Made by a program: the position numbers and the translations under genes
In this document: piece after piece, positions 19,024-29,451 of the stretch
Layout of the letters: each line of letters begins with the position of its first letter
Position numbering within the stretch: position 1 is the first letter of the stretch
Notes under the pieces: model-generated
Told to the model about the DNA's origin: nothing
The model's database searches: none
The model's input: only the letters and a program-made list of their open reading frames with translations
Origin: Myxococcus sp.
Lineage (GTDB): Bacteria > Myxococcota > Myxococcia > Myxococcales > Myxococcaceae
Assembly: GCA_014879945.1 (NCBI GenBank)
Contig: JACSRE010000189.1
Span: 1 to 38,436 of the forward strand
Length of the DNA stretch: 38,436 bases
Direction: 5' to 3'

Positions 19024-20396
19024 AGCGCGCGGTGATGGCTCTGGTGGTGGCAGCGTGTCTCGGCTGTACGGTCGAGGGCCCCGAGGGGCCCATCGGTCCT
19101 GCGGGGCCCCCCGGCGTGTCTGGGGGCAAGGGTCCGGTCGGTCCGCAAGGCGACGCCGGCGCGCAGGGGCCGCCCGGCGCGCCCGGCGCGTTCATCGTGC
19201 TCTCGGAGCGCGCGCGCCGGGGCCTCGAGGTCGCGCCGGTGAAGCTGACGCTCGAGGGCCTCACCAGCGCGCAGGTCGAGCGGGTCGGCGCCGGCAGCTA
19301 TCTCGTCAACGCGGTGGCCGACTGCGGCGCGTGTCACGACGCGCAGGGCGCTGACGGCGGGCGCCGCGCCCTCGCGGGCGGGCAGCGCTTCACCCTCGCG
19401 CCCGCGCTCGGCACCGAGGTCTACGCGCGCAACCTCACGCCCGACGCGAACACCGGGCTGACGCTCAGCGAAGACCAGTTCCTGCTCATCATGCAGACCG
19501 GCACCGACAAGAAGAACCCCAGCTCGTCGCTGCTGGTGATGCCCTGGTTCGAGTACCGGTGGATGACGGTGGACGACCTCAAGTCCATCTACGCGTACCT
19601 GAAGGCCGTCCCGCCCGAGAACAACGACGTCCCCGGCGACGTGAAGAACGACATCCCCAAGGTGACGATGCCTTTGGCCTTCGGCGACGGCGACGTGCCG
19701 CGCCCGCTGCTCCCCGAAGCGACGCGCGACGCCGACGGGGTGCTGCGCGGCTTCACCATTCAGCCGCTCGCGCAGCCTGACCTCGGCGCGTGGCCCGCCA
19801 ACGTGCAGAGCCTCTTCGGGCGCGGGAGCTACCTCGTCAACGCCGTGGGCCGGTGCAACGAGTGCCACACCAACCCGGCGCGAGACCCGACGACGCACCG
19901 AATCAACACCGCGGGCTACCTCGCCGGAGGCATGGTCTTCACCGACCCTACGGGCCCGCACGCCCCGGCGTCGCTCAAGCGGTCGATGAGCCGAAACCTC
20001 TGCGGCGCCACCAACGGCTACACCGCGCCCTTCACCGACTTCGCCGCGTCGCTCGCGTCGGGGCTGCGCGCGGGCCGCTCACCCTCAGAGAGCCTGGCCT
20101 GGCCGATGCCGACGTGGGCGCTCTCGAACCTCACCACCCAGGACCTCGAGGCCCTCTTCACCTACCTGCGCCTGGTGCCCCGCCGCATGGGCGCGGACGA
20201 CAAGCCGACGGTCGGCGCAGTCACCGCCTGCAGCGCGAGCGTGGCCTGCCCGGGGGCGCAGCGCTGCAACCTCAGCGCCGGAGAGTGCGAGGGGGCCTGC
20301 GACGCGCTCACCCCGTGCCCCGCGTGTCAGCGCTGCGTGGCGGGGGCGTGCGTGGCGCCGGCCGCCAACGACGCGTGCCTGACGTCGGGGCTCTGA
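19020..20396 (+). CDS. Diheme cytochrome c lipoprotein with collagen-like segment
   Basis: 458 residues. GGAGACGGAGAGG precedes ATG 19020. The N-terminus MKRAVMALVVAAC is a lipoprotein signal (lipobox V-A-A-C, Cys13). Residues 20-58 form 13 uninterrupted collagen-type Gly-X-Y triplets (GPE GPI GPA GPP and so on). Two class I cytochrome c domains follow, with heme motifs CGACH (102-106) and CNECH (279-283), each introduced by GSYLVNAV. This is the arrangement of diheme dehydrogenase-type cytochromes. A Cys-rich tail (from about 400) ends the protein. The rod-like spacer would hold the hemes away from the membrane. Directly upstream of the Rieske gene, it probably exchanges electrons with the bc complex. 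Confidence 0.88.
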   Translation: MKRAVMALVVAACLGCTVEGPEGPIGPAGPPGVSGGKGPVGPQGDAGAQGPPGAPGAFIVLSERARRGLEVAPVKLTLEGLTSAQVERVGAGSYLVNAVADCGACHDAQGADGGRRALAGGQRFTLAPALGTEVYARNLTPDANTGLTLSEDQFLLIMQTGTDKKNPSSSLLVMPWFEYRWMTVDDLKSIYAYLKAVPPENNDVPGDVKNDIPKVTMPLAFGDGDVPRPLLPEATRDADGVLRGFTIQPLAQPDLGAWPANVQSLFGRGSYLVNAVGRCNECHTNPARDPTTHRINTAGYLAGGMVFTDPTGPHAPASLKRSMSRNLCGATNGYTAPFTDFAASLASGLRAGRSPSESLAWPMPTWALSNLTTQDLEALFTYLRLVPRRMGADDKPTVGAVTACSASVACPGAQRCNLSAGECEGACDALTPCPACQRCVAGACVAPAANDACLTSGL

Positions 20397-20406
20397 AGGA
20401 GGCCGC

Positions 20407-20928
20407 GTGAAGGACGACCGACCGCCGACGCTGTGGACCCGACGCGACGTGCAGACGCGCTCGGCGTGGGCGCTGTTGGGCGCGAGCCTGGTGGCGATGG
20501 TGGGCGCGTTCGTGCGGCTGCTCTTCCCCCGGGTGCGCGCGGAGCCGCCGACGAAGGTGGTGCTCGGCAGCCCCGAGGCCTTCGCCGTCGGCGAGGTGAG
20601 CGAGCGGTACAAGCGCACGCACCGCTTCGTGCTCGTGCGCGAGGCCGCCGGCTTCTACGCGCTGCGCTCGGTCTGCACCCACCTGGGCTGCGTGCCGGCG
20701 TGGAGCGCGGGCCAGGAGAAGTTCAAGTGCCCCTGTCACGGGAGCGGCTTTCACCGCGACGGCGTGAACTTCGAGGGCCCGGCCCCGCGCCCGCTGGAGC
20801 GCCTGGCCATCGCGCTCGACGCCGAGAAGAACCTCGTCGTCGACACCGCGGTGGTGCTGCGGCGCGAGCGCGGTGAGTGGAGCCGCGCCGACGCCTTCCT
20901 CCCGTACCCGTCGGCGGGCCACCCATGA
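20407..20928 (+). CDS. Rieske iron-sulfur protein of the bc complex
   Basis: 173 residues. An N-terminal membrane anchor (about 18-42, SAWALLGASLVAMVGAFVRLL) is followed by the Rieske fold with both cluster motifs: CTHLGC (Cys90, His92, Cys95) and CPCHGSGF (Cys108, Cys110, His111). Cys95 and Cys110 would form the usual disulfide. It takes one electron from quinol at the Qo site of the cytochrome b below. AAGGAGG ends a few bases before the ATG, a strong ribosome-binding site. Its stop overlaps the cytochrome b start (ATGA, 20925-20928). Confidence 0.95.
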   Translation: MKDDRPPTLWTRRDVQTRSAWALLGASLVAMVGAFVRLLFPRVRAEPPTKVVLGSPEAFAVGEVSERYKRTHRFVLVREAAGFYALRSVCTHLGCVPAWSAGQEKFKCPCHGSGFHRDGVNFEGPAPRPLERLAIALDAEKNLVVDTAVVLRRERGEWSRADAFLPYPSAGHP

Positions 20929-21731
20929 GCGACGCGCCCCCGCCCTCGACGCGCGAGGGCCCTCCCCCCGGGCTGGTGAAGGAGGTGGTGCGGTCGGCGT
21001 TGCGCGTCGAGAACGTCGACACCCCGAGGAACCGGGTGCTCGCGGTCGCGCACACCGTGTGGCTGCACCTGCACCCCACCAAGGTGCCGCGCTACTCGGT
21101 GCGCTTCAGCTTCACCTGGGGCGCCGGTGGCATCAGCTTTCTGCTCTTCCTCGTCACCGTGGTGACCGGCGTGGTGCTGATGTTCGTCTACCGCCCGACG
21201 CCCGAGCACGCCTGGCTCGACGTGAAGCGGCTCGACTTCGACGTGCCCTTCGGCATGTTGAACCGCAACATGCACCGCTGGGCGGCGCACGCGATGGTCA
21301 TCGTGGTGTGGGTGCACCTGCTGCGTGTCTTCCTGACGGGCTCGTACAAGGCGCCGCGGCAGTTCAACTGGGTCGTCGGCGTCGGGCTGCTCACCTTGAC
21401 GATGCTGCTCTCGTTCACCGGCTACCTGCTGCCGTGGGACCAGCTGTCGATGTGGGCGGTGACGGTGGGCACCAACATGGCCGCGGCCGCGCCCGTCATC
21501 GGCCACGAAGGCCCCTTCGCGGCGCCGGGCCTGAGCGCGACCAACGACGTGCGCGCGCTGCTGCTCGGCGGCCCCACGGTGGGGAGCGCGGCGCTCCTGC
21601 GCTTCTACATCCTCCACTGCGTGGCGCTGCCGATGGCCCTGGGCCTGGGCTGCATCGTCCACTTCTGGCGGGTGCGCCGCGACGGCGGCATCAGCGGGCC
21701 CGGCACCTCGGGGCCGAAGGGAGCGCCCTGA
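20925..21731 (+). CDS. Cytochrome b N-terminal subunit (b6-like)
   Basis: 268 residues with four membrane helices: the two-heme half of a split cytochrome b. Heme-ligand histidines are His117 and His131 in helix B (14 apart) and probably His231 and His246 in helix D. The 15-residue spacing in helix D is that of cytochrome b6, not mitochondrial cytochrome b. The motif SFTGYLLPWDQLSMWAVTVG is the classic Qo-side stretch. A polar 50-residue N-terminal extension precedes the first helix. It forms the core of the quinol-oxidising complex with the Rieske protein and the following subunit. Confidence 0.94.
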   Translation: MSDAPPPSTREGPPPGLVKEVVRSALRVENVDTPRNRVLAVAHTVWLHLHPTKVPRYSVRFSFTWGAGGISFLLFLVTVVTGVVLMFVYRPTPEHAWLDVKRLDFDVPFGMLNRNMHRWAAHAMVIVVWVHLLRVFLTGSYKAPRQFNWVVGVGLLTLTMLLSFTGYLLPWDQLSMWAVTVGTNMAAAAPVIGHEGPFAAPGLSATNDVRALLLGGPTVGSAALLRFYILHCVALPMALGLGCIVHFWRVRRDGGISGPGTSGPKGAP

Positions 21732-22637
21732 GTGGAGCCGCTCCTCCACATCCTCCTCAAGCCCGACAACGTGCCCATCGTGCTGATGGTGCCGCTCTTC
21801 GCCGGCATCCTGCTCCACTGGTGGCGCGCGGCGCGGCGCCACGACCGGCTGCTCGTCGAGGGCGGAGAGGCCGCCGTCCGCCGTGAGCTCGACGGGCCGC
21901 TGCCCGAGGGCACGCCGGAGCCGAAGCTCCACACCTGGCCGTACCTGCTGCGCGTCGAGCTCATCGCAGCGCTCGCCACGGTGGTGGTGCTGCTGGTGTG
22001 GTCCATCACGCTCGACGCGCCGCTCGAGCAGCTCGCCGACCCGACGCGCACGCCCAACCCCAGCAAGGCGCCCTGGTACTTCCTGGGGCTGCAGGAGCTG
22101 CTCGTCTACTTCGACCCGTGGGTGGCGGGCGTGGCGCTGCCGCTGCTCATCATCGCGGGCCTCTGCCTCATTCCGTACCTCGACGTGAACCCGGCCGGGA
22201 GCGGCTTTCACTCGTGGCGCGGCCGCCGCTTCGCCGTCTCGGTCTTCCTCTTCGGCTTCGTCGGCCTCTGGCTGGGGTTGATCCTCGTGGGCACCTTCTG
22301 TCGCGGCCCGGGGTGGAACTGGTTCTGGCCGTGGGAGCCGTGGGACCGCGCGCGCGCGGTGGAGCTCGCCACCCGTGACTGGCCGGCGCTCTTCGGGGTC
22401 TCTCCCGGGCCGGGCGCCTCGCTGCTGGGCGGCGCGACGGTGCTGGGCTGGTACGGCCTGGGGCTGGTCGGCTGGCGGCTCCTGCGCCACCGGCCCGCGC
22501 TGCAACGCCTCGGCGGCTCGCGCTACGCGGTGGTGGCGTTCCTGCTGCTCACCATGCTCGCGGTGCCGGTGAAGATGGCGCTGCGGCTGGGCTTCTCGGT
22601 CAAGTACGTGTGGACGACGCCGTGGTTCAACCTGTGA
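21732..22637 (+). CDS. Cytochrome b C-terminal subunit (subunit IV-like, enlarged)
   Basis: 301 residues from a GTG that directly abuts the preceding stop. It carries the C-terminal half of cytochrome b. The Qo motif, classically PEWY, reads A-P-W-Y at 113-116 (KAPWYFLGLQELLVYFDPWV), so the usual Glu is missing and proton exit from quinol must use another residue. The text PYLDVNPAGSGFHSWRGRRF follows, as in many non-phototrophic bacterial complexes. About six hydrophobic segments make it longer than plant subunit IV (about 160). Two extra helices at the C-terminus may dock the octaheme cytochrome. Its stop overlaps the next start as GTGA (22634-22637). Confidence 0.92.
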   Translation: MEPLLHILLKPDNVPIVLMVPLFAGILLHWWRAARRHDRLLVEGGEAAVRRELDGPLPEGTPEPKLHTWPYLLRVELIAALATVVVLLVWSITLDAPLEQLADPTRTPNPSKAPWYFLGLQELLVYFDPWVAGVALPLLIIAGLCLIPYLDVNPAGSGFHSWRGRRFAVSVFLFGFVGLWLGLILVGTFCRGPGWNWFWPWEPWDRARAVELATRDWPALFGVSPGPGASLLGGATVLGWYGLGLVGWRLLRHRPALQRLGGSRYAVVAFLLLTMLAVPVKMALRLGFSVKYVWTTPWFNL

Positions 22638-24838
22638 AGCCCGGCGGCCGCGCGGCGGAGTCCACCAGCTACCGGGCGCCGTTCCTTCTCCTCTGCGCGC
22701 TCCTCTTCCTCTCGACGCTCTGGGCCCTCTGGGACGAGGGCTGGGGGCGGCGGCCGTGGAAGGCGACCCAGGCGCGCTTCAACGAGGTGCTCGCGCAGCG
22801 AGGGCTGCCGCCGGTGGACGAGGGCCTCAGGCAGGTGACGATTCCCGCGCTCGACGTCGCCGACCGCTGCCAGTCCTGCCACCTCGGCGTCGATCGGCCC
22901 GGCCTCGAGAGCGACGAGGTGCCGCGCGTGCTGCGCACACACCCGCGCCGTGACGAGCTGCTCGGCCGACACCCGGTGGAGCGCGTGGGCTGTACGCCGT
23001 GCCACGCCGGGCAGGGGCTGCAGACCAAGGGCGTCGGCGGGGCGGCCTTCGCGCACGGGCGTGACGACCCGTACTGGGAGCAGCCGCTGCGCTCGAGGCC
23101 CTTCATCGAGTCGAGCTGTGTCGCCTGTCACGCCAGCGAGCGCGAGGTGCCAGGGGCGCCGTTGTTCAACCGCGGGCGCGCGCTCTTCGAAGACCGCCGC
23201 TGCTCGGCGTGTCACTCGAGCCGGTACGTGACGACGCCCGCGCCCGCGGCGCCTCCGCTCGACCGGTTGAGAGAGAAGACCTCCGAGGCCTTCGTGGTGG
23301 CGTGGCTGCGCGACCCGGTGAAGCTGCGGGCCGGCACGCGCATGCCGGCGTTCTGGCCGGAGGCAGGCGCGCGGCGCGAGCAGGAGCCGGTGGCCATCGC
23401 CGCCTTCCTCGGCAGCGTGAGCGAGGCCGCGAGCGCGCCGGGCAGCGCCCCGCCGACCCGGGAGGAGGTCGAGGCCGGCAAGGCGCTGTTCGACGCCGTC
23501 GGGTGTCGCGGGTGTCATCAGCTCGCAGACGAGGCCGCCGGCCCGCCCGAGGCGGGCTTTGGCCCCCGCCTCGACGGCATCGGCGCGCGCGCGACGCGGG
23601 CGTGGCTCCAGGCGTGGCTGAAGAACCCGCGCGCCCAGTTCGCAGACGCGCGCATGCCGGACCTGCGCTTGAGCGACGACGAGGCCGCCGCGCTCGCCGC
23701 CTTCCTCGCGTCGCAGGTGCCGGCCGGTGAGCAGCCGCTCGAGCCGCGCTGGTCCACGCCCGACGCCGCGCTCGTCAGCCAGGGCCGGCAGGCGGTGCTC
23801 CGCTACGGCTGTCAGGCCTGTCACCGCATTCCCGGGCTGACGCCGGCCGGGCGCCCAGGCCCCGACCTCGACGACTTCGGCGACCTGCCGCCGGAGCGGG
23901 TGGAGTGGGGTGAAGGCCGGCCCGCCTGCGACTTCACCGAGCGCGAGTGCTGGACGCTGGCGAAGCTCCGCCACCCCCAGGCCCTGCGTCGGCCCGGGCT
24001 CGACCTGGTGATGCCGCGCTTCGACCTGTCCGACGACGAGGCGTTGGCGCTCTCGGTGTTCCTCCTCTCGAACCGCGCGCAGCCCGCGGTGCCCCGTCAG
24101 GTGAGCGAGGCGTCGGCGGCCATCGCGGCGGGCGAGCAGGTGATGGCGCGGCACAACTGCGCGGGGTGCCACGAGGTGGCGCGTGAGGAGCGCCGCGTCG
24201 GCGACGAGGTGCAGACGACGGTGCGCGGCGGGCAGATTCGCCGGTTCTACGACGACGACGCGCTCGCGCCGCCGCCGCTCTCGCGGGCCGGCCAGAAGTT
24301 CCAGCTCCGGTGGCTGTTCGACTTCCTCCACCAGCCGCGTCGGGTGCGCCCGTGGCTCTCCGTGCGCATGCCGACGTTCGCGCTCGAGGACCGCGAGGTC
24401 GAGGCGCTCCTGCGCTCCTTCGCCGCGCGCAGCGGCCAGCCCTTCCCCTTCGAGCGCGAGGCGCCGCTCCTGGCAGGCCCCGGCGAGCGCGCCGACGCCA
24501 CCTTCCTGCTCGAGAAGATGCAGTGCGCGCGCTGCCACGCCGTCGGCGCCGGAAGAGACGTGAAGCCCGCCGAGCGCGCGCCCGACCTGACGCTCGCCGC
24601 CGGCCGCCTCAAGCCCGGGTGGATGCGCGCGTGGCTGCTCGACCCGCAGGCGCTGCAGCCCGGCACCCGCATGCCCGCCTACTTCTTCCTCACCGACGAC
24701 GACGACCCGACGAGCTGGAGCACGCCGTACCCCAACGTGCTCGGAGGAAACGCCACGCGTCAGGTCGACGCGCTGGTCTGGCTCACCACCGAGCTGGGGC
24801 GGCAGGCCCCGGCGCACCCCGAAGGAGCACCCCGATGA
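22634..24838 (+). CDS. Membrane-anchored octaheme cytochrome c of the bc operon
   Basis: 734 residues from GTG 22634, which overlaps the stop of the cytochrome b C-terminal gene. An N-terminal anchor (YRAPFLLLCALLFLSTLWAL) is followed by eight CXXCH motifs: CQSCH, CTPCH, CVACH, CSACH, CRGCH, CQACH, CAGCH and CARCH. Five MP-containing loops (RMPAF, RMPDL, VMPRF, RMPTF, RMPAYF) look like axial methionine ligands of class I cytochrome c folds. The first hemes seem to form a multiheme N-terminal module, the rest at least four cytochrome c domains in tandem. This replaces the single-heme cytochrome c1 or f of textbook complexes. It would carry electrons from the Rieske protein through a long periplasmic heme wire. 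Confidence 0.93.
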   Translation: MKPGGRAAESTSYRAPFLLLCALLFLSTLWALWDEGWGRRPWKATQARFNEVLAQRGLPPVDEGLRQVTIPALDVADRCQSCHLGVDRPGLESDEVPRVLRTHPRRDELLGRHPVERVGCTPCHAGQGLQTKGVGGAAFAHGRDDPYWEQPLRSRPFIESSCVACHASEREVPGAPLFNRGRALFEDRRCSACHSSRYVTTPAPAAPPLDRLREKTSEAFVVAWLRDPVKLRAGTRMPAFWPEAGARREQEPVAIAAFLGSVSEAASAPGSAPPTREEVEAGKALFDAVGCRGCHQLADEAAGPPEAGFGPRLDGIGARATRAWLQAWLKNPRAQFADARMPDLRLSDDEAAALAAFLASQVPAGEQPLEPRWSTPDAALVSQGRQAVLRYGCQACHRIPGLTPAGRPGPDLDDFGDLPPERVEWGEGRPACDFTERECWTLAKLRHPQALRRPGLDLVMPRFDLSDDEALALSVFLLSNRAQPAVPRQVSEASAAIAAGEQVMARHNCAGCHEVAREERRVGDEVQTTVRGGQIRRFYDDDALAPPPLSRAGQKFQLRWLFDFLHQPRRVRPWLSVRMPTFALEDREVEALLRSFAARSGQPFPFEREAPLLAGPGERADATFLLEKMQCARCHAVGAGRDVKPAERAPDLTLAAGRLKPGWMRAWLLDPQALQPGTRMPAYFFLTDDDDPTSWSTPYPNVLGGNATRQVDALVWLTTELGRQAPAHPEGAPR

Positions 24839-25560
24839 CCGCCACCCGCTTCCTTGCCGTCCTCCTCCTCCTCGCGTCGCCGCTGGCCCTCGCCGAAGAC
24901 GCCGTGGGTGTGGTGCGCGGCACCGTGACGCTCAAGGGCACGCCCCCCAAGGCGCCCGAGGTGAAGCTGCCCGCCGACCTGGCCGAGAAGGACCGCGCGT
25001 TCTGCACCGCGAAGCCGTCGCTGGTGCCGCCCTTCTACGTCACCGACAAGGCCGCCCACCTCAAGGACGTGGTGGTGTGGCTCACCGGGGTGAAGGGCGC
25101 CGCCGGCCCCGCCACGCCGCGCTCGCTGGTGAACGCCGACTGTCGCTTCGAGCCGCACGTGCAGGCGGTGACGGTCGGCGACGAGCTCAAGGTGGTGAAC
25201 CGCGACCCGCTGCTGCACAACACGCACCCGGTCTACCTGGGCGACCAGAGCACGATGTTCAACATCGCGCTCCCCGAGCAGGGCCAGGAGGTGAAGAAGA
25301 AGGTGAAGAAGCCCGGCGTGCTGAAGGTGCAGTGCGACGCGGGCCACGTGTGGATGCGGGCCTTCGTGCACGTCTTCGACCACCGCTTCCACGCCGTCAC
25401 CGGCGCCGACGGGGCCTTCGCCATCGCCGACGTTCCCCCCGGCAAGTACACGCTCAACGCGTGGCACGAGGCGGCGGGCACGCAGACGCGAGAGGTGGAG
25501 GTCACCGCGACCACGCCGAGCCAGAGCGACTTCAGCTTCGAGGTGAAGCCCGTGCCCTGA
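24835..25560 (+). CDS. Periplasmic cupredoxin-like protein with carboxypeptidase-regulatory-like domain
   Basis: 241 residues, ATG overlapping the previous stop (ATGA). The signal peptide is MTATRFLAVLLLLASPLALA. The central domain has the makings of a type 1 copper site: H-N-T-H at 128-131, then VQCDAGHVWM (Cys167, His171, Met174). Families of this kind usually read CDxHPWM; here one residue is inserted. A terminal beta-sandwich (VTGADGAFAIADVPPGKYTL, NAWHEAAGTQ) is of the CarboxypepD_reg type. Last gene of the bc operon, it may be a copper electron carrier taking electrons from the octaheme cytochrome or a structural subunit. Copper binding is inferred. Confidence 0.82.
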   Translation: MTATRFLAVLLLLASPLALAEDAVGVVRGTVTLKGTPPKAPEVKLPADLAEKDRAFCTAKPSLVPPFYVTDKAAHLKDVVVWLTGVKGAAGPATPRSLVNADCRFEPHVQAVTVGDELKVVNRDPLLHNTHPVYLGDQSTMFNIALPEQGQEVKKKVKKPGVLKVQCDAGHVWMRAFVHVFDHRFHAVTGADGAFAIADVPPGKYTLNAWHEAAGTQTREVEVTATTPSQSDFSFEVKPVP

Positions 25561-25617
25561 GCCGAGCGTGGGCCACACGCACTCCGCCGCGGCTCACTCC
25601 CACGGGGTGCGTGGCCC
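25558..25617. terminator. Bidirectional terminator-like inverted repeats between convergent operons
   Basis: Between the cupredoxin-like gene and the converging diheme cytochrome gene, TGAGCCG (25558-25564) pairs with CGGCTCA (25590-25596), and the stop codons of both genes lie in these arms. A second, overlapping repeat pairs GGGCCACACGCAC-type sequence (25570-25583) with GGGGTGCGTGGCCC (25604-25617), with a two-base bulge. There is no T-tract. The location between converging stops supports a shared terminator. Confidence 0.4.
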
Positions 25618-26355
25618 GAAGAGCCAGCGGAAGAAGCCGGGGCTGCGCGAGAGCGAGCGCACGTAGTGAACGAGGGCCCAGCGGTCCTCCTCGCTGGGCA
25701 GGCTGTCGCCGTACGAGGGCATCGGCGTGCCGTCGAGGCCGGTGACGAAGGTGCGGTACACGTCCTGGGGGGTGGAGCCGCCCTTGTAGAGCCCGACGGT
25801 GAAGTCGAGCGGCGCGGTGCTCTCGCCGTGGTCGTCCACCGCCGTCGCCGCGGCGGGCCCGTCGCCGCGCCCCTCGGGGCCGTGGCACTGGCCGCACTTG
25901 AGTGACTGGTAGAGCGCGCGGCCGCGCTCCCTCGCGGCGGGCGTGTCGGGCAGCGGCCGGAGCTCTCCTGCGGGCGGCACGACTCGCTCCGGGGGCTCAC
26001 CCTTCGGCCCGAAGGCGAGCACGTAGCCGGCGACGGCCTTGAGGTCGGTGGGCGACAGGAGCGGCCCGAACGCCGTCATCCACGTGCCGCGAACACCGGT
26101 GGAGACGGTGCGCATCACGTCGCTGAGCAGCGGGCGCTCGCCCGACTCGGTGCTGCGGAACTTGAAGGCGCCGGTGACGAAGTTGCGCGGCTTCGGAGAG
26201 AGCGCCGCCGCGCCCGGGCCGCGCCCGTCACCCTCGCGCCCGTGGCAGCTCTCACAGGCGTCGCGGTAGACGACGCCCCCGCGCACGAGGTCGGGCGGCT
26301 CGTCGCCCCACGCGCTCACCGCCAGCAGCAGCGCCACCGCCAGGCCCGCGCGCAT
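25594..26355 (-). CDS. Periplasmic diheme cytochrome c
   Basis: 253 residues. A signal peptide (MRAGLAVALLLAVSAWG) is followed by two cytochrome c domains with CESCH (34-38) and CGQCH (154-158). Each is followed by a G-x-G-D-G-x-G loop (HGREGDGRGPG, HGPEGRGDGPA) and has a Met ligand candidate (TWMTAFG, TPMPSYG). Its ATG directly follows the TAG of the cytochrome-porin gene, so it is in the same operon. It is a likely shuttle between the inner-membrane bc/octaheme complex and the outer-membrane cytochrome-barrel. The two operons converge here. Confidence 0.92.
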   Translation of the reverse strand: MRAGLAVALLLAVSAWGDEPPDLVRGGVVYRDACESCHGREGDGRGPGAAALSPKPRNFVTGAFKFRSTESGERPLLSDVMRTVSTGVRGTWMTAFGPLLSPTDLKAVAGYVLAFGPKGEPPERVVPPAGELRPLPDTPAARERGRALYQSLKCGQCHGPEGRGDGPAAATAVDDHGESTAPLDFTVGLYKGGSTPQDVYRTFVTGLDGTPMPSYGDSLPSEEDRWALVHYVRSLSRSPGFFRWLFGPRTPWE

Positions 26356-27501
26356 CTAGAGGAACCCGTGGAGCTGAACGACGAAGAAGTCTCCGCGCCC
26401 CTGCACCCGCTGCGGAATGTCGTCGCGCATCACGTAGGTGGCCGTGACGCGAAGGAAAGGAATGGGGAACACCTCGACCGTCAGCGCGAGGCGGGTGCGG
26501 TGGTCCTGGGCGACCTTCAGGTTGGCGTCGTGGTACCCGAAGGCCGCGCGCACCCCGACGCCGCGGGTGATGAGCAGGTCGGCCTCGGCGTGCGCCGCCA
26601 GCTCGAAGCTCTGCGTGCGCTCACCGCCCTTGGGCCGCGCGGTGTCGACGATGAGGTCCACCTCGGAGAGGAGCGTCAGCCGGCCGAAGTTCGCCGCCGC
26701 GAAGCCGCCGCCGACCTGCCGCACCGACAGGCCCGCGGGCGTGGTGCCGTCGTTCCACGAGTACGAGGCGCCGACGCGCCCCCAGCGCGCCTTCACGCCG
26801 GCCGACGCGGTGAGCTGCTTGCGCTCGTTGTCGTCGGTGCCGCCCAGGGTGCCGTTGCTCAACGCGGCGGTGATGAAGGCCGGCCCCGGCTCGGCGCCCA
26901 CCTCGACGCCGAGGTCCTGGTTGCCGAAGTTGAAGCCCGTCGCCTGGCGCACGAAGGCCTCGTCGTCGGCGAGCCGCAGCCCGTACGGCAGGAGGATGCG
27001 CCCGGCCTTCGCGTAGCCCCCGTAGGGCAGGCCGTAGAGCAGAATCATCGCCTCGCGCGCCGACGCGCCCTCGGGGCCAAGCTTCTCGTCGAGGTAGAGG
27101 GCCAGGTGGTCCTTCACGACGGTGAGCTCTCCGTAGAGGTTGGCCTGGGGTACGCGCAGGGTGTTGCCGCCGGGCGCCACCAGCCACTCGCCCTCGAACT
27201 GCGTGCGCACCGTCTCGACCGTCACGTGCTGCACGCGCACGTCGGCGCCCACCGACACGTATTCGCCGAGGTTGGGGCTGACGACGCCCAGCCGCGTGGT
27301 GTCGGAGCCTGGCCGCCACAGCGGGAGCGCGGTCTGCGAGTAGTTGGCCCCGAAGGCGTTGCGTTTGCCGCCGCCGGCGCGGTTGACGTGGCACTGGCTG
27401 CAGAGAAAGCCCTCGCGCACGGCGAGGTGCGGCTCGGCGTTCGCGGTGAGGGCGAGCAGCGTGAGGGAGAGCGCGGCGCGCGCGAGGGAGCCGTCAGTCA
27501 C
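26356..27501 (-). CDS. Monoheme cytochrome fused to outer-membrane beta-barrel (Cyc2-like layout)
   Basis: 381 residues from GTG 27501, chosen because it overlaps the upstream stop by 8 bases, has GGAG nearby and starts a clean signal peptide ending TANA|EPH; an upstream TTG is possible. Right after the signal lies one heme motif, CSQCH (34-38), in GFLCSQCHVNRAGGGKRNAF. The remaining 320 residues look like a beta-barrel: alternating strands with short turns (EYVSVGADVRVQHVTVETV, GVGVRAAFGYHDANLKVAQD) and a final strand DFFVVQLHGFL ending in Leu after Phe. One heme at the mouth of a porin is the architecture of Cyc2 iron oxidases, though sequence homology is not shown. It probably passes electrons across the outer membrane. 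Confidence 0.82.
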   Translation of the reverse strand: MTDGSLARAALSLTLLALTANAEPHLAVREGFLCSQCHVNRAGGGKRNAFGANYSQTALPLWRPGSDTTRLGVVSPNLGEYVSVGADVRVQHVTVETVRTQFEGEWLVAPGGNTLRVPQANLYGELTVVKDHLALYLDEKLGPEGASAREAMILLYGLPYGGYAKAGRILLPYGLRLADDEAFVRQATGFNFGNQDLGVEVGAEPGPAFITAALSNGTLGGTDDNERKQLTASAGVKARWGRVGASYSWNDGTTPAGLSVRQVGGGFAAANFGRLTLLSEVDLIVDTARPKGGERTQSFELAAHAEADLLITRGVGVRAAFGYHDANLKVAQDHRTRLALTVEVFPIPFLRVTATYVMRDDIPQRVQGRGDFFVVQLHGFL

Positions 27502-28060
27502 GCGGCGCTCCGCGAGCAATCCACGCGCGAATCGCCTCGAGCTTCTCGGCCGAGAGGTACGGCGGCTCGTTCAACGGCATGCGCTCTCCGACCCGGCGGG
27601 GATCCGACGGAATCACCTTGAGGTAGAGGTAGCTGTTCAGCGGGTCGCCGGGCTTGATGAGTGTCAGGGCTGGCACCTCGACGGACTTCACGCCGACGAT
27701 GCGCTGGTAGGCGTTGACCGCGTCGAGCTGCATGCCCTTGGGCGCGCTGGCGCCGCGATGGCAGTACGCCGCGCAGGTCTGGGTGAAGATGTTCTTCTGA
27801 ATCCACCCGTAGCGCGCGCGCTCGTCGACGACGCCCGCGTCGACCTCGGCCACGCCGCCGTCGTCGCTGGCGCCGCCGTCGTGCACGCCCGCGTCGCGCG
27901 GCAGCTCGTTGTTCCCGCCCGCGTCCACCGCGAGGCCCGCGTCGCGTCGCGGCCGGCCCTCGACGTCGAGGTCTTCGCCGGTGCCGGCGCAGGCCGCCGC
28001 AGTCGCGAGCAACAGCGCCGTCGCCCAGGCCTTCCATGCGTCGAGCGAGCGCGCCGTCAT
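27494..28060 (-). CDS. Lipoprotein with CX3CH cytochrome-like domain
   Basis: 188 residues from ATG 28060. Signal MTARSLDAWKAWATALLLAT leads into AAAC (Cys24), a weak lipobox. An acidic Asp/Gly-rich linker (about 25-80) precedes a domain resembling planctomycete-type cytochrome c-like modules: IFTQTCAAYCHRGASAPKGM, then KPGDPLNSYLYLKVIP, GERMPLNEP and a C-terminal helix. The heme-type motif is C-A-A-Y-C-H (Cys96, Cys100, His101), i.e. CX3CH instead of CX2CH. Met161 could be an axial ligand. First gene of the cytochrome-porin operon (8-base overlap). A surface or periplasmic partner for the barrel is likely; heme attachment at CX3CH is uncertain. Confidence 0.8.
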   Translation of the reverse strand: MTARSLDAWKAWATALLLATAAACAGTGEDLDVEGRPRRDAGLAVDAGGNNELPRDAGVHDGGASDDGGVAEVDAGVVDERARYGWIQKNIFTQTCAAYCHRGASAPKGMQLDAVNAYQRIVGVKSVEVPALTLIKPGDPLNSYLYLKVIPSDPRRVGERMPLNEPPYLSAEKLEAIRAWIARGAPRD

Positions 28061-28201
28061 CGAGGTGCGTGGTTCTGGCCATGCCTCGGTCGTCACGCAA
28101 GACCGGCGCAGGCGTGCTTGTCGCGGATCAACGCGCCAGCCGCGGGGCCGCACCGCCTCGACGAACTCGAAGCGCCGTTGAGTCGGGTGCGCTGGCCGCC
28201 G

Positions 28202-28414
28202 CTACGCCTCGCGCTTCCCGCCGACGAAGAGCCCGGTCACACCGGCCACGAGCAGCGTCACGCCGCCGATGATCAGCCACATCGAGCGGTCGGTCGGGGT
28301 TCCGGTGAAGACGCGGCTGACGTCGGAGCTGAACGACTCGGAGGCGCTGACGCCGTAGACGGTGAGCGCGATGCCCGCCGCCACGACGGCGAGCGCGATG
28401 GCGCGGGCGATCAC
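28202..28414 (-). CDS. DUF3185-family small membrane protein
   Basis: 70 residues from GTG 28414 that overlaps the stop of the ice-binding gene (GTGA, 28411-28414). Two hydrophobic helices (about 5-22 and 45-64) flank a polar loop containing SESFSSDVSRVFTGTPTDRS, the conserved signature of DUF3185. Family function is unknown; members are small inner-membrane proteins. Translational coupling to the ice-binding lipoprotein is notable but may reflect only the compact genome. Confidence 0.85.
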   Translation of the reverse strand: MIARAIALAVVAAGIALTVYGVSASESFSSDVSRVFTGTPTDRSMWLIIGGVTLLVAGVTGLFVGGKREA

Positions 28415-29172
28415 GGCTGCACCACCGTCGCGGCGTCCAGGACGACCGCCGTCTGGGCCAGCAGGCGGCCCGTCACCGATGCGCCAGTGCGCAGCGCGAT
28501 CGCCGTCTGCGAGAGCACGACGCCCTCGAGGTGTGAAGCGGTGCCTAGCTCAACCCGACCGGCGACCTGCCAGAAGACGTGCCTCGGCTGCGCGCCGCCC
28601 GAGAGCAGCACCTTCACGCCGTTGCTCACCGTGAGGTCCTGCGCGACTTGAAAGACCCAGACGTCGGTCGCCGTGCCTCTGAGCGTGACCTCGGCGGGGA
28701 TGAGGAGCCCGGTGCCCCACCGGTAGACCCCTGCCTCGATCGTCATGCCGCCGATGTTGCCAGCGCCCAGCTCGGTGACCGCTGCGGGGCGACCTGCGGC
28801 GGCGGTGAAGGCGAGCTCCATGTCACCGACCGCGGCGGTGAGACGGCTGGGCGTCGGCGGCGTGTCGTCGGACGCGTAGATCCTCCCGGTCACCTGGGTC
28901 GAGGTGGAGAAGGTGTTCGTCGCGTCGGCGGTGCGCGAGAAGCCTGTGACGAAGGTCGCGGCGGCGGGGCTCAGGCCGACGTCTCCGGTGATGGCCGAGG
29001 CCGGGACCGTCGAGACGCCGCTCTTGGCGAGGATGACGAAGGCGCTCGCGGCGCCGAGGTTCACCGGGTCGGCGGGCGGGTTGCCGCCATCGGGGAGCCT
29101 GCCGCCGCCGACGGGACCGCACGCCGTGAGCGCAAAGACGACAGAGAACAGCGAGTGGGTGGAGTGGTTCAT
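28411..29172 (-). CDS. Ice-binding protein (DUF3494 family) lipoprotein
   Basis: 253 residues. Signal MNHSTHSLFSVVFALTAC with lipobox L-T-A-C (Cys18), then a short Gly/Pro linker. From residue about 39 the sequence follows the DUF3494 ice-binding fold throughout: NLGAASAFVILAKSGVSTVP, SAITGDVGLSPAAATFVTGF, NTFSTSTQVTGRIYASD, ELGAGNIGGMTIEAGVYRWG, QPRHVFWQVAGRVELG and GRLLAQTAVVLD. This fold is an irregular three-sided beta-helix whose flat face binds ice in fungal and bacterial antifreeze proteins. The lipid anchor would display it on the cell surface, as an ice adhesin or freeze protectant. Homologues also exist in mesophiles, so ice binding itself is inferred. Confidence 0.9.
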   Translation of the reverse strand: MNHSTHSLFSVVFALTACGPVGGGRLPDGGNPPADPVNLGAASAFVILAKSGVSTVPASAITGDVGLSPAAATFVTGFSRTADATNTFSTSTQVTGRIYASDDTPPTPSRLTAAVGDMELAFTAAAGRPAAVTELGAGNIGGMTIEAGVYRWGTGLLIPAEVTLRGTATDVWVFQVAQDLTVSNGVKVLLSGGAQPRHVFWQVAGRVELGTASHLEGVVLSQTAIALRTGASVTGRLLAQTAVVLDAATVVQP

Positions 29173-29451
29173 TCTCCCCCAGCAGCAGCATTGGGGCCAT
29201 CGTGGGTGCGGCGCCTCATTGCCGCGACTTGTCTCGCCCGCGTAGGTCAGCGGCCATCAACTCGAACGAAGGTGCGCTCGATTTGATGCGCGCTCTGACC
29301 GGGTCGCGTCGGGGCGCCGCGCCCACGAGAAGAGGCCTCTCCGATTTGACTGCTCGGGCCAGCGCATCGGCGAACGCGCTGACGCCTCAGGTGGTAGGGA
29401 GGGCCTACGTCAGCTGCACGTCAGGGCGCCCACGCACGACGAAGGAGACGT
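29173..29451. other. Intergenic divergent region between ice-binding gene and hflK
   Basis: The largest gap in the window (279 bases). It must hold the promoters of the minus-strand ice-binding pair and of hflKC. I see a TTGACT -35-like hexamer (29346-29351) without a clear -10, and a small dyad GTAGG-GAGGG-CCTAC close to 29394-29408. No convincing gene, RNA or repeat is present. Confidence 0.4.

Follow-up and report, generated by a model that had tools for sequence, protein, structure and literature searches.

The window, the whole stretch of 38,436 nt of Myxococcus sp. DNA that was analysed, carries a gene for an ice-binding-type protein (IBP) that overlaps the start of a gene for a small membrane protein of the DUF3185 family, and the same overlapping pair recurs in a second genus of the Myxococcota. 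This recurrence indicates that the pairing is real. The pair was probably gained laterally from an Archangium-like lineage. Our leading interpretation, to which we assign a probability of about 40%, is that the two genes form a laterally moving envelope-protection pair, consisting of an ice-adsorbing IBP at the outer membrane and a co-translated two-helix DUF3185 protein belonging to the envelope-stress repertoire. The genome had been described in advance as myxobacterium-like, and a myxobacterial origin was supported.

The gene pair and its products

The relevant features are as follows, where G109 is an Archangium sp. metagenome-assembled genome (MAG) and G006 a congener of the window's genome.

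27494..28153, minus strand: lipoprotein gene with a CAAYCH haem-c-like motif, next downstream of the cassette and in the block syntenic with G006
28202..28414, minus strand: DUF3185 (PF11381) gene, 70 aa, two-helix membrane protein (profile match, hydropathy, conservation)
28411..28414, minus strand: GTGA stop/start overlap, the IBP TGA lying over the DUF3185 GTG start
28411..29172, minus strand: IBP gene, 253 aa, DUF3494 (PF11999), with a probable lipoprotein signal (profile match and solved-chain similarity)
28423..29034, minus strand: DUF3494 ice-binding-like domain (profile match)
29119..29172, minus strand: signal peptide and lipobox, MNHSTHSLFSVVFALTA-C18, with Gly at +2 (sequence, hydropathy, homologue)
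29173..29180, minus strand: purine-rich GGGGGAGA, immediately 5' of the IBP start codon
29452..31457, plus strand: SPFH/Band_7 gene pair, divergent from the IBP gene and not by the cassette in G109

The preliminary description had assigned a full DUF3494 domain to the product of 28411-29172, and this is borne out by the PF11999 Ice_binding profile, which covers residues 47-250 over nearly its whole length (profile positions 1-207 of 208) at 235.9 bits, relative to a cut-off of 28.7. The closest solved chains, 9li0, 9lhn and 4nu3, are all DUF3494 proteins and match residues 33-252 with E values of 1e-73 to 1e-77. At 221.1 bits the protein lies below the cut-off of 400 for the NCBIfam equivalog NF045625 (IBP_CFB) and is without membership of that family. 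Its similarity to these solved chains suggests the beta-solenoid fold of the family, in which a flat face would bind ice. The reading frame has its first usual start at the ATG at 29172, and the purine-rich GGGGGAGA preceding it, which has a similar counterpart, AGGGAGGGGGGT, in G109, is a putative ribosome-binding site; no sigma-70-like promoter was detected by consensus search. A second IBP, from another clade, is encoded elsewhere in the window's genome (G000:C43:27673-28284, L017) within a 588-aa ORF that has a lipobox.

The DUF3185 product matches PF11381 at 64.1 bits (cut-off 25.3; profile positions 1-58 of 59), and its two hydrophobic stretches, at about residues 6-22 and 48-64 by hydropathy, flank a conserved polar loop carrying FTGxxTD. 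It therefore resembles other small membrane proteins of the family in its whole profile, its two hydrophobic helices and its loop but, unlike the window's gene, members of the family do not usually lie beside an IBP gene. No special RNA fold was found at the IBP/DUF3185 junction (z -0.61).

A lipoprotein signal on the DUF3494 protein, also proposed earlier, is probable. The N-terminus, MNHSTHSLFSVVFALTAC-G, includes a lipobox, LTAC, ending in Cys18 and preceded by an h-region with a mean hydropathy of 2.25, and the n-region, MNHSTHS, carries two His and no Lys or Arg. A basic residue in the n-region is usual for Sec/SPII lipoproteins without being strictly defining, and it is for want of such a Lys or Arg that a strict lipobox rule misses the window IBP. 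Its closest homologue, from G109, has Lys in the n-region (MNSK) and a clear LAGC lipobox (SLAG-C-D, with Asp at +2). The assignment was made because of the LTAC lipobox, the LAGC lipobox of G109 and the pattern throughout the clade, where 90 of the 115 distinct related IBPs whose 5' end is intact (at least 78%) pass the strict rule, a lower bound since several more IBPs, and the window protein itself, appear lipoprotein-like to the eye yet fail the rule. Among other genes of the same loci it is passed by 27 of 298 (9%).

The lipid anchor had been presented as unusual for a DUF3494 protein. This view was abandoned, and the anchor rejected as a novelty, given that a lipobox is the norm for the clade and that a Flavobacterium study describes an IBP-like protein of the Sec/SPII type for which recrystallisation inhibition was measured (PMC13413566). 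Lipoproteins of the Myxococcus xanthus inner membrane tend to carry Lys at +2 and those of the extracellular matrix Ala at +7, while outer-membrane lipoproteins show no clear signal (PMC3222651). Since the window IBP has Gly at both positions, the outer membrane is its most likely location.

DUF3494 domain and lipid anchor are each of known kinds. The window IBP shares the full-length domain with bacterial ice-binding proteins such as 4nu3 and 9li0, and differs from proteins of that type in being a single domain set on a short linker behind the lipobox, in having a gene coupled to that for DUF3185, and in that its ice activity is a prediction. The antifreeze-like Sec/SPII protein PL002-1792 from Flavobacterium sp. 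PL002 likewise combines a lipoprotein signal with a predicted ice-binding beta-solenoid for which surface anchoring was proposed, but it has 402 aa and derives from another phylum, and the accessible part of that report mentions no DUF3185 partner (PMC13413566). Surface-held ice-binding domains also occur in the Ig-tethered ice adhesins of the Marinomonas primoryensis and Shewanella frigidimarina types (PMC9957290), whereas the window IBP is without an Ig-like tether and would be separated from its lipid anchor by a short linker of about 17-29 residues. In the literature searched, which falls short of the whole literature, DUF3185 or PF11381 is unmentioned and there is no earlier description of a coupled DUF3494-DUF3185 pair.

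Recurrence and origin of the pair

When DUF3494-DUF3185 neighbours were sought in a survey of 195 Myxococcota genomes, in which DUF3185 was present in 72 and IBPs in 39, the overlapping pair was found in two genomes only, the second being G109 (contig JAUXRX010000034), which belongs to another genus and has the genes in the same order. The GTGA overlap that had been noted between the two genes at the outset is kept there within an identical junction context of 14 nt, GTGCAGCCGTGATC, and a stop/start overlap retained in a relative is what a translationally coupled pair would show. The proteins of the two loci are 77% (IBP) and 70% (DUF3185) identical. At the DNA level, 9 kb from the window and the G109 locus share 898 bp at 83% similarity, corresponding to mature IBP and DUF3185, and otherwise one match of 32 bp. 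The flanks are unlike: the window has the SPFH pair and cytochrome genes, G109 RND-efflux-like and other genes, as read from the sequence. Estimates of dN/dS (NG86) between window and G109 are about 0.30 for the IBP and 0.47 for DUF3185, which indicates that purifying selection acts on both. Because a second genus shows the same junction and gene order, the pairing is considered to be more than chance, and the two coupled pairs probably share one origin. The DUF3185 link suggested at the outset, which a lack of co-occurrence in other genomes would have refuted, has withstood that check.

Several lines of evidence bear on the history of the window's copies. In the IBP tree the window copy groups with those of G109, G021 and G110 (support 99/91), and in the DUF3185 tree with those of G109, G107, G021 and G110 (98/97); these four genomes all belong to one Archangium-like genus (g16). 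DUF3185 was found in none of six congeners of the window's genome. Between window and G109 the mature IBP is 82% identical, as against 70% for FumC. Moreover, positions 19077-28006 are syntenic with G006 at 79-80%, and the synteny stops at about 28006, shortly before the cassette is reached; in G006 the downstream block is present but the cassette is absent, and other genes occupy its position. Lateral acquisition is likely in view of the trees, the lack of DUF3185 in congeners, the higher identity of the mature IBP and the break in synteny.

The same IBP and DUF3185 lineages sit apart in G021 and G110. In G021, the DUF3185 gene overlaps a different upstream frame, again by GTGA, near a YflT-like (YflT/DUF1269) gene, and it is chiefly because of this arrangement that DUF3185 need not serve an IBP.

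With regard to the flanking genes of the window, the two SPFH/Band_7 genes overlap one another, are HflK/HflC-like and begin about 280 bp from the IBP gene; no match to the second was found in G109, G021 or G107. A run of c-type cytochrome and CxxCH genes (27494-28153, 26356-27519, 25594-26355 and 22610-24838) is conserved with G006 in 19077-28006.

Occurrence and neighbourhoods in other lineages

Among the Myxococcota, co-presence of DUF3185 and IBPs is not significant (19 genomes, 14.4 expected, P=0.065, kinship ignored). In 149 genomes of the class to which an Ignavibacteria record belongs, DUF3185 occurs in 9, IBPs in 23 and both in 7, against 1.4 expected (hypergeometric P=2.6e-5, a value that ignores kinship). 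Where both lie on one contig they are separated by 1.8 kb (L189), about 6 kb (L186), about 10 kb (G376) and about 24 kb (G273), and the L189 stretch also carries CsbD, three BON domains, OmpA, DUF6600 and DUF883 genes. Of the 80 best IBP loci in the genome collection, three only have DUF3185 within 8 kb, and a plasmid search revealed no DUF3185 relatives.

OmpA-like genes reach 20.4 per Mb at these 80 loci and 1.6 in controls (P=0.0005), and other envelope-stress families 19.4 and 3.3 per Mb, respectively (P=0.0035, or 0.009 without query-source loci), the controls being 58 stretches from the same or related genomes. Across phyla, the families rich around IBPs are OmpA, CsbD, DUF4398 and BON. 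These figures are exploratory because the query proteins were chosen from such neighbourhoods.

DUF3494 genes, in many cases as tandem copies, were also seen beside OmpA, BON, CsbD, DUF4398, LapA and sll1863-like stress genes in records of Gallionella type (L183, L187, L194), Lentisphaerae (L202) and Ignavibacteria (L186, L189), a hint that unrelated phyla share an envelope-stress island of a general kind to which IBPs belong. In two putative viral contigs from IMG/VR (L207, L208), the encoded IBP domains share 65-71% identity with that of the window, and DUF3494 domains 55-57% identical to it occur on haloarchaeal plasmids of Halomicrococcus and Natribaculum (L313:4845-7799, NZ_CP100466.1; CP095393.1), one of them next to agl glycosylation genes. 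A haloarchaeal plasmid is an unexpected place to find an ice-binding domain.

DUF3185 could be a passenger, in which case the pair would be no more than an expression unit of two general stress proteins, and DUF3185 would be functionally unconnected with ice and with the IBP. We regard this as a credible possibility, if not the favoured one, given the different upstream frame in G021, the 53 of 72 DUF3185-bearing Myxococcota genomes that are without an IBP, and the Ignavibacteria, in which DUF3185 sits with CsbD, BON, OmpA, DUF6600 and Dps/Usp-like genes and not directly beside IBPs. It accounts less readily for exactly two genes having moved or persisted together between unrelated settings, and for the purifying selection on IBP and DUF3185 alike.

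Possible role of the pair

In the proposed envelope-protection pair, the IBP would be exported via Sec, lipidated at Cys18 and, with Gly at +2 where inner-membrane lipoproteins of Myxococcus have Lys, directed to the outer membrane. Its beta-solenoid would adsorb to ice at the cell surface, where it could restrain recrystallisation or keep the cell at the edge of the ice. At the IBP stop codon, ribosomes may reinitiate on DUF3185, such that the membrane protein would be made in step with the IBP, and DUF3185 may then act in support at the membrane, within the general or envelope-stress repertoire, freezing being an osmotic stress too.

Ice as the target is uncertain, because of the haloarchaeal relatives and because DUF3494 has also been described as substrate-binding and adhesive (PMC12337378). 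The domain might recognise a surface polymer, an envelope component or neighbouring cells and function in adhesion or general envelope stress, and the envelope-stress genes around IBPs would accord with this. We consider such a target rather unlikely, since proteins named ice-binding or antifreeze are found among the nearest solved relatives and the isolate names of many related records, as we read them, suggest fen, lake and north-Siberian samples. More doubtful still is the idea that lipoprotein IBP and DUF3185 together make up a module dedicated to freezing tolerance that reaches across the envelope, with DUF3185 required for the IBP phenotype. An accidental, functionless joining of two reading frames is very improbable: the overlap is confined to two genomes and the orthologues in G021 and G110 lie apart, but junction and order are identical in two genera with unrelated flanks, dN/dS is below 1 for both genes, and DUF3185 and IBPs co-occur in a separate class, the Ignavibacteria.

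For DUF3185, these results provide a concrete context, in its overlap with an ice-binding-type lipoprotein gene in the Myxococcota and its genome-level co-occurrence with IBPs in the Ignavibacteria; a dedicated freezing-tolerance module, if true, would represent the first function for the family. For DUF3494, they suggest that most proteins of this clade have a lipid anchor and that their genes often lie in envelope-stress neighbourhoods, a pattern relevant to whether their role is that of surface antifreezes, ice adhesins or general envelope-stress proteins.
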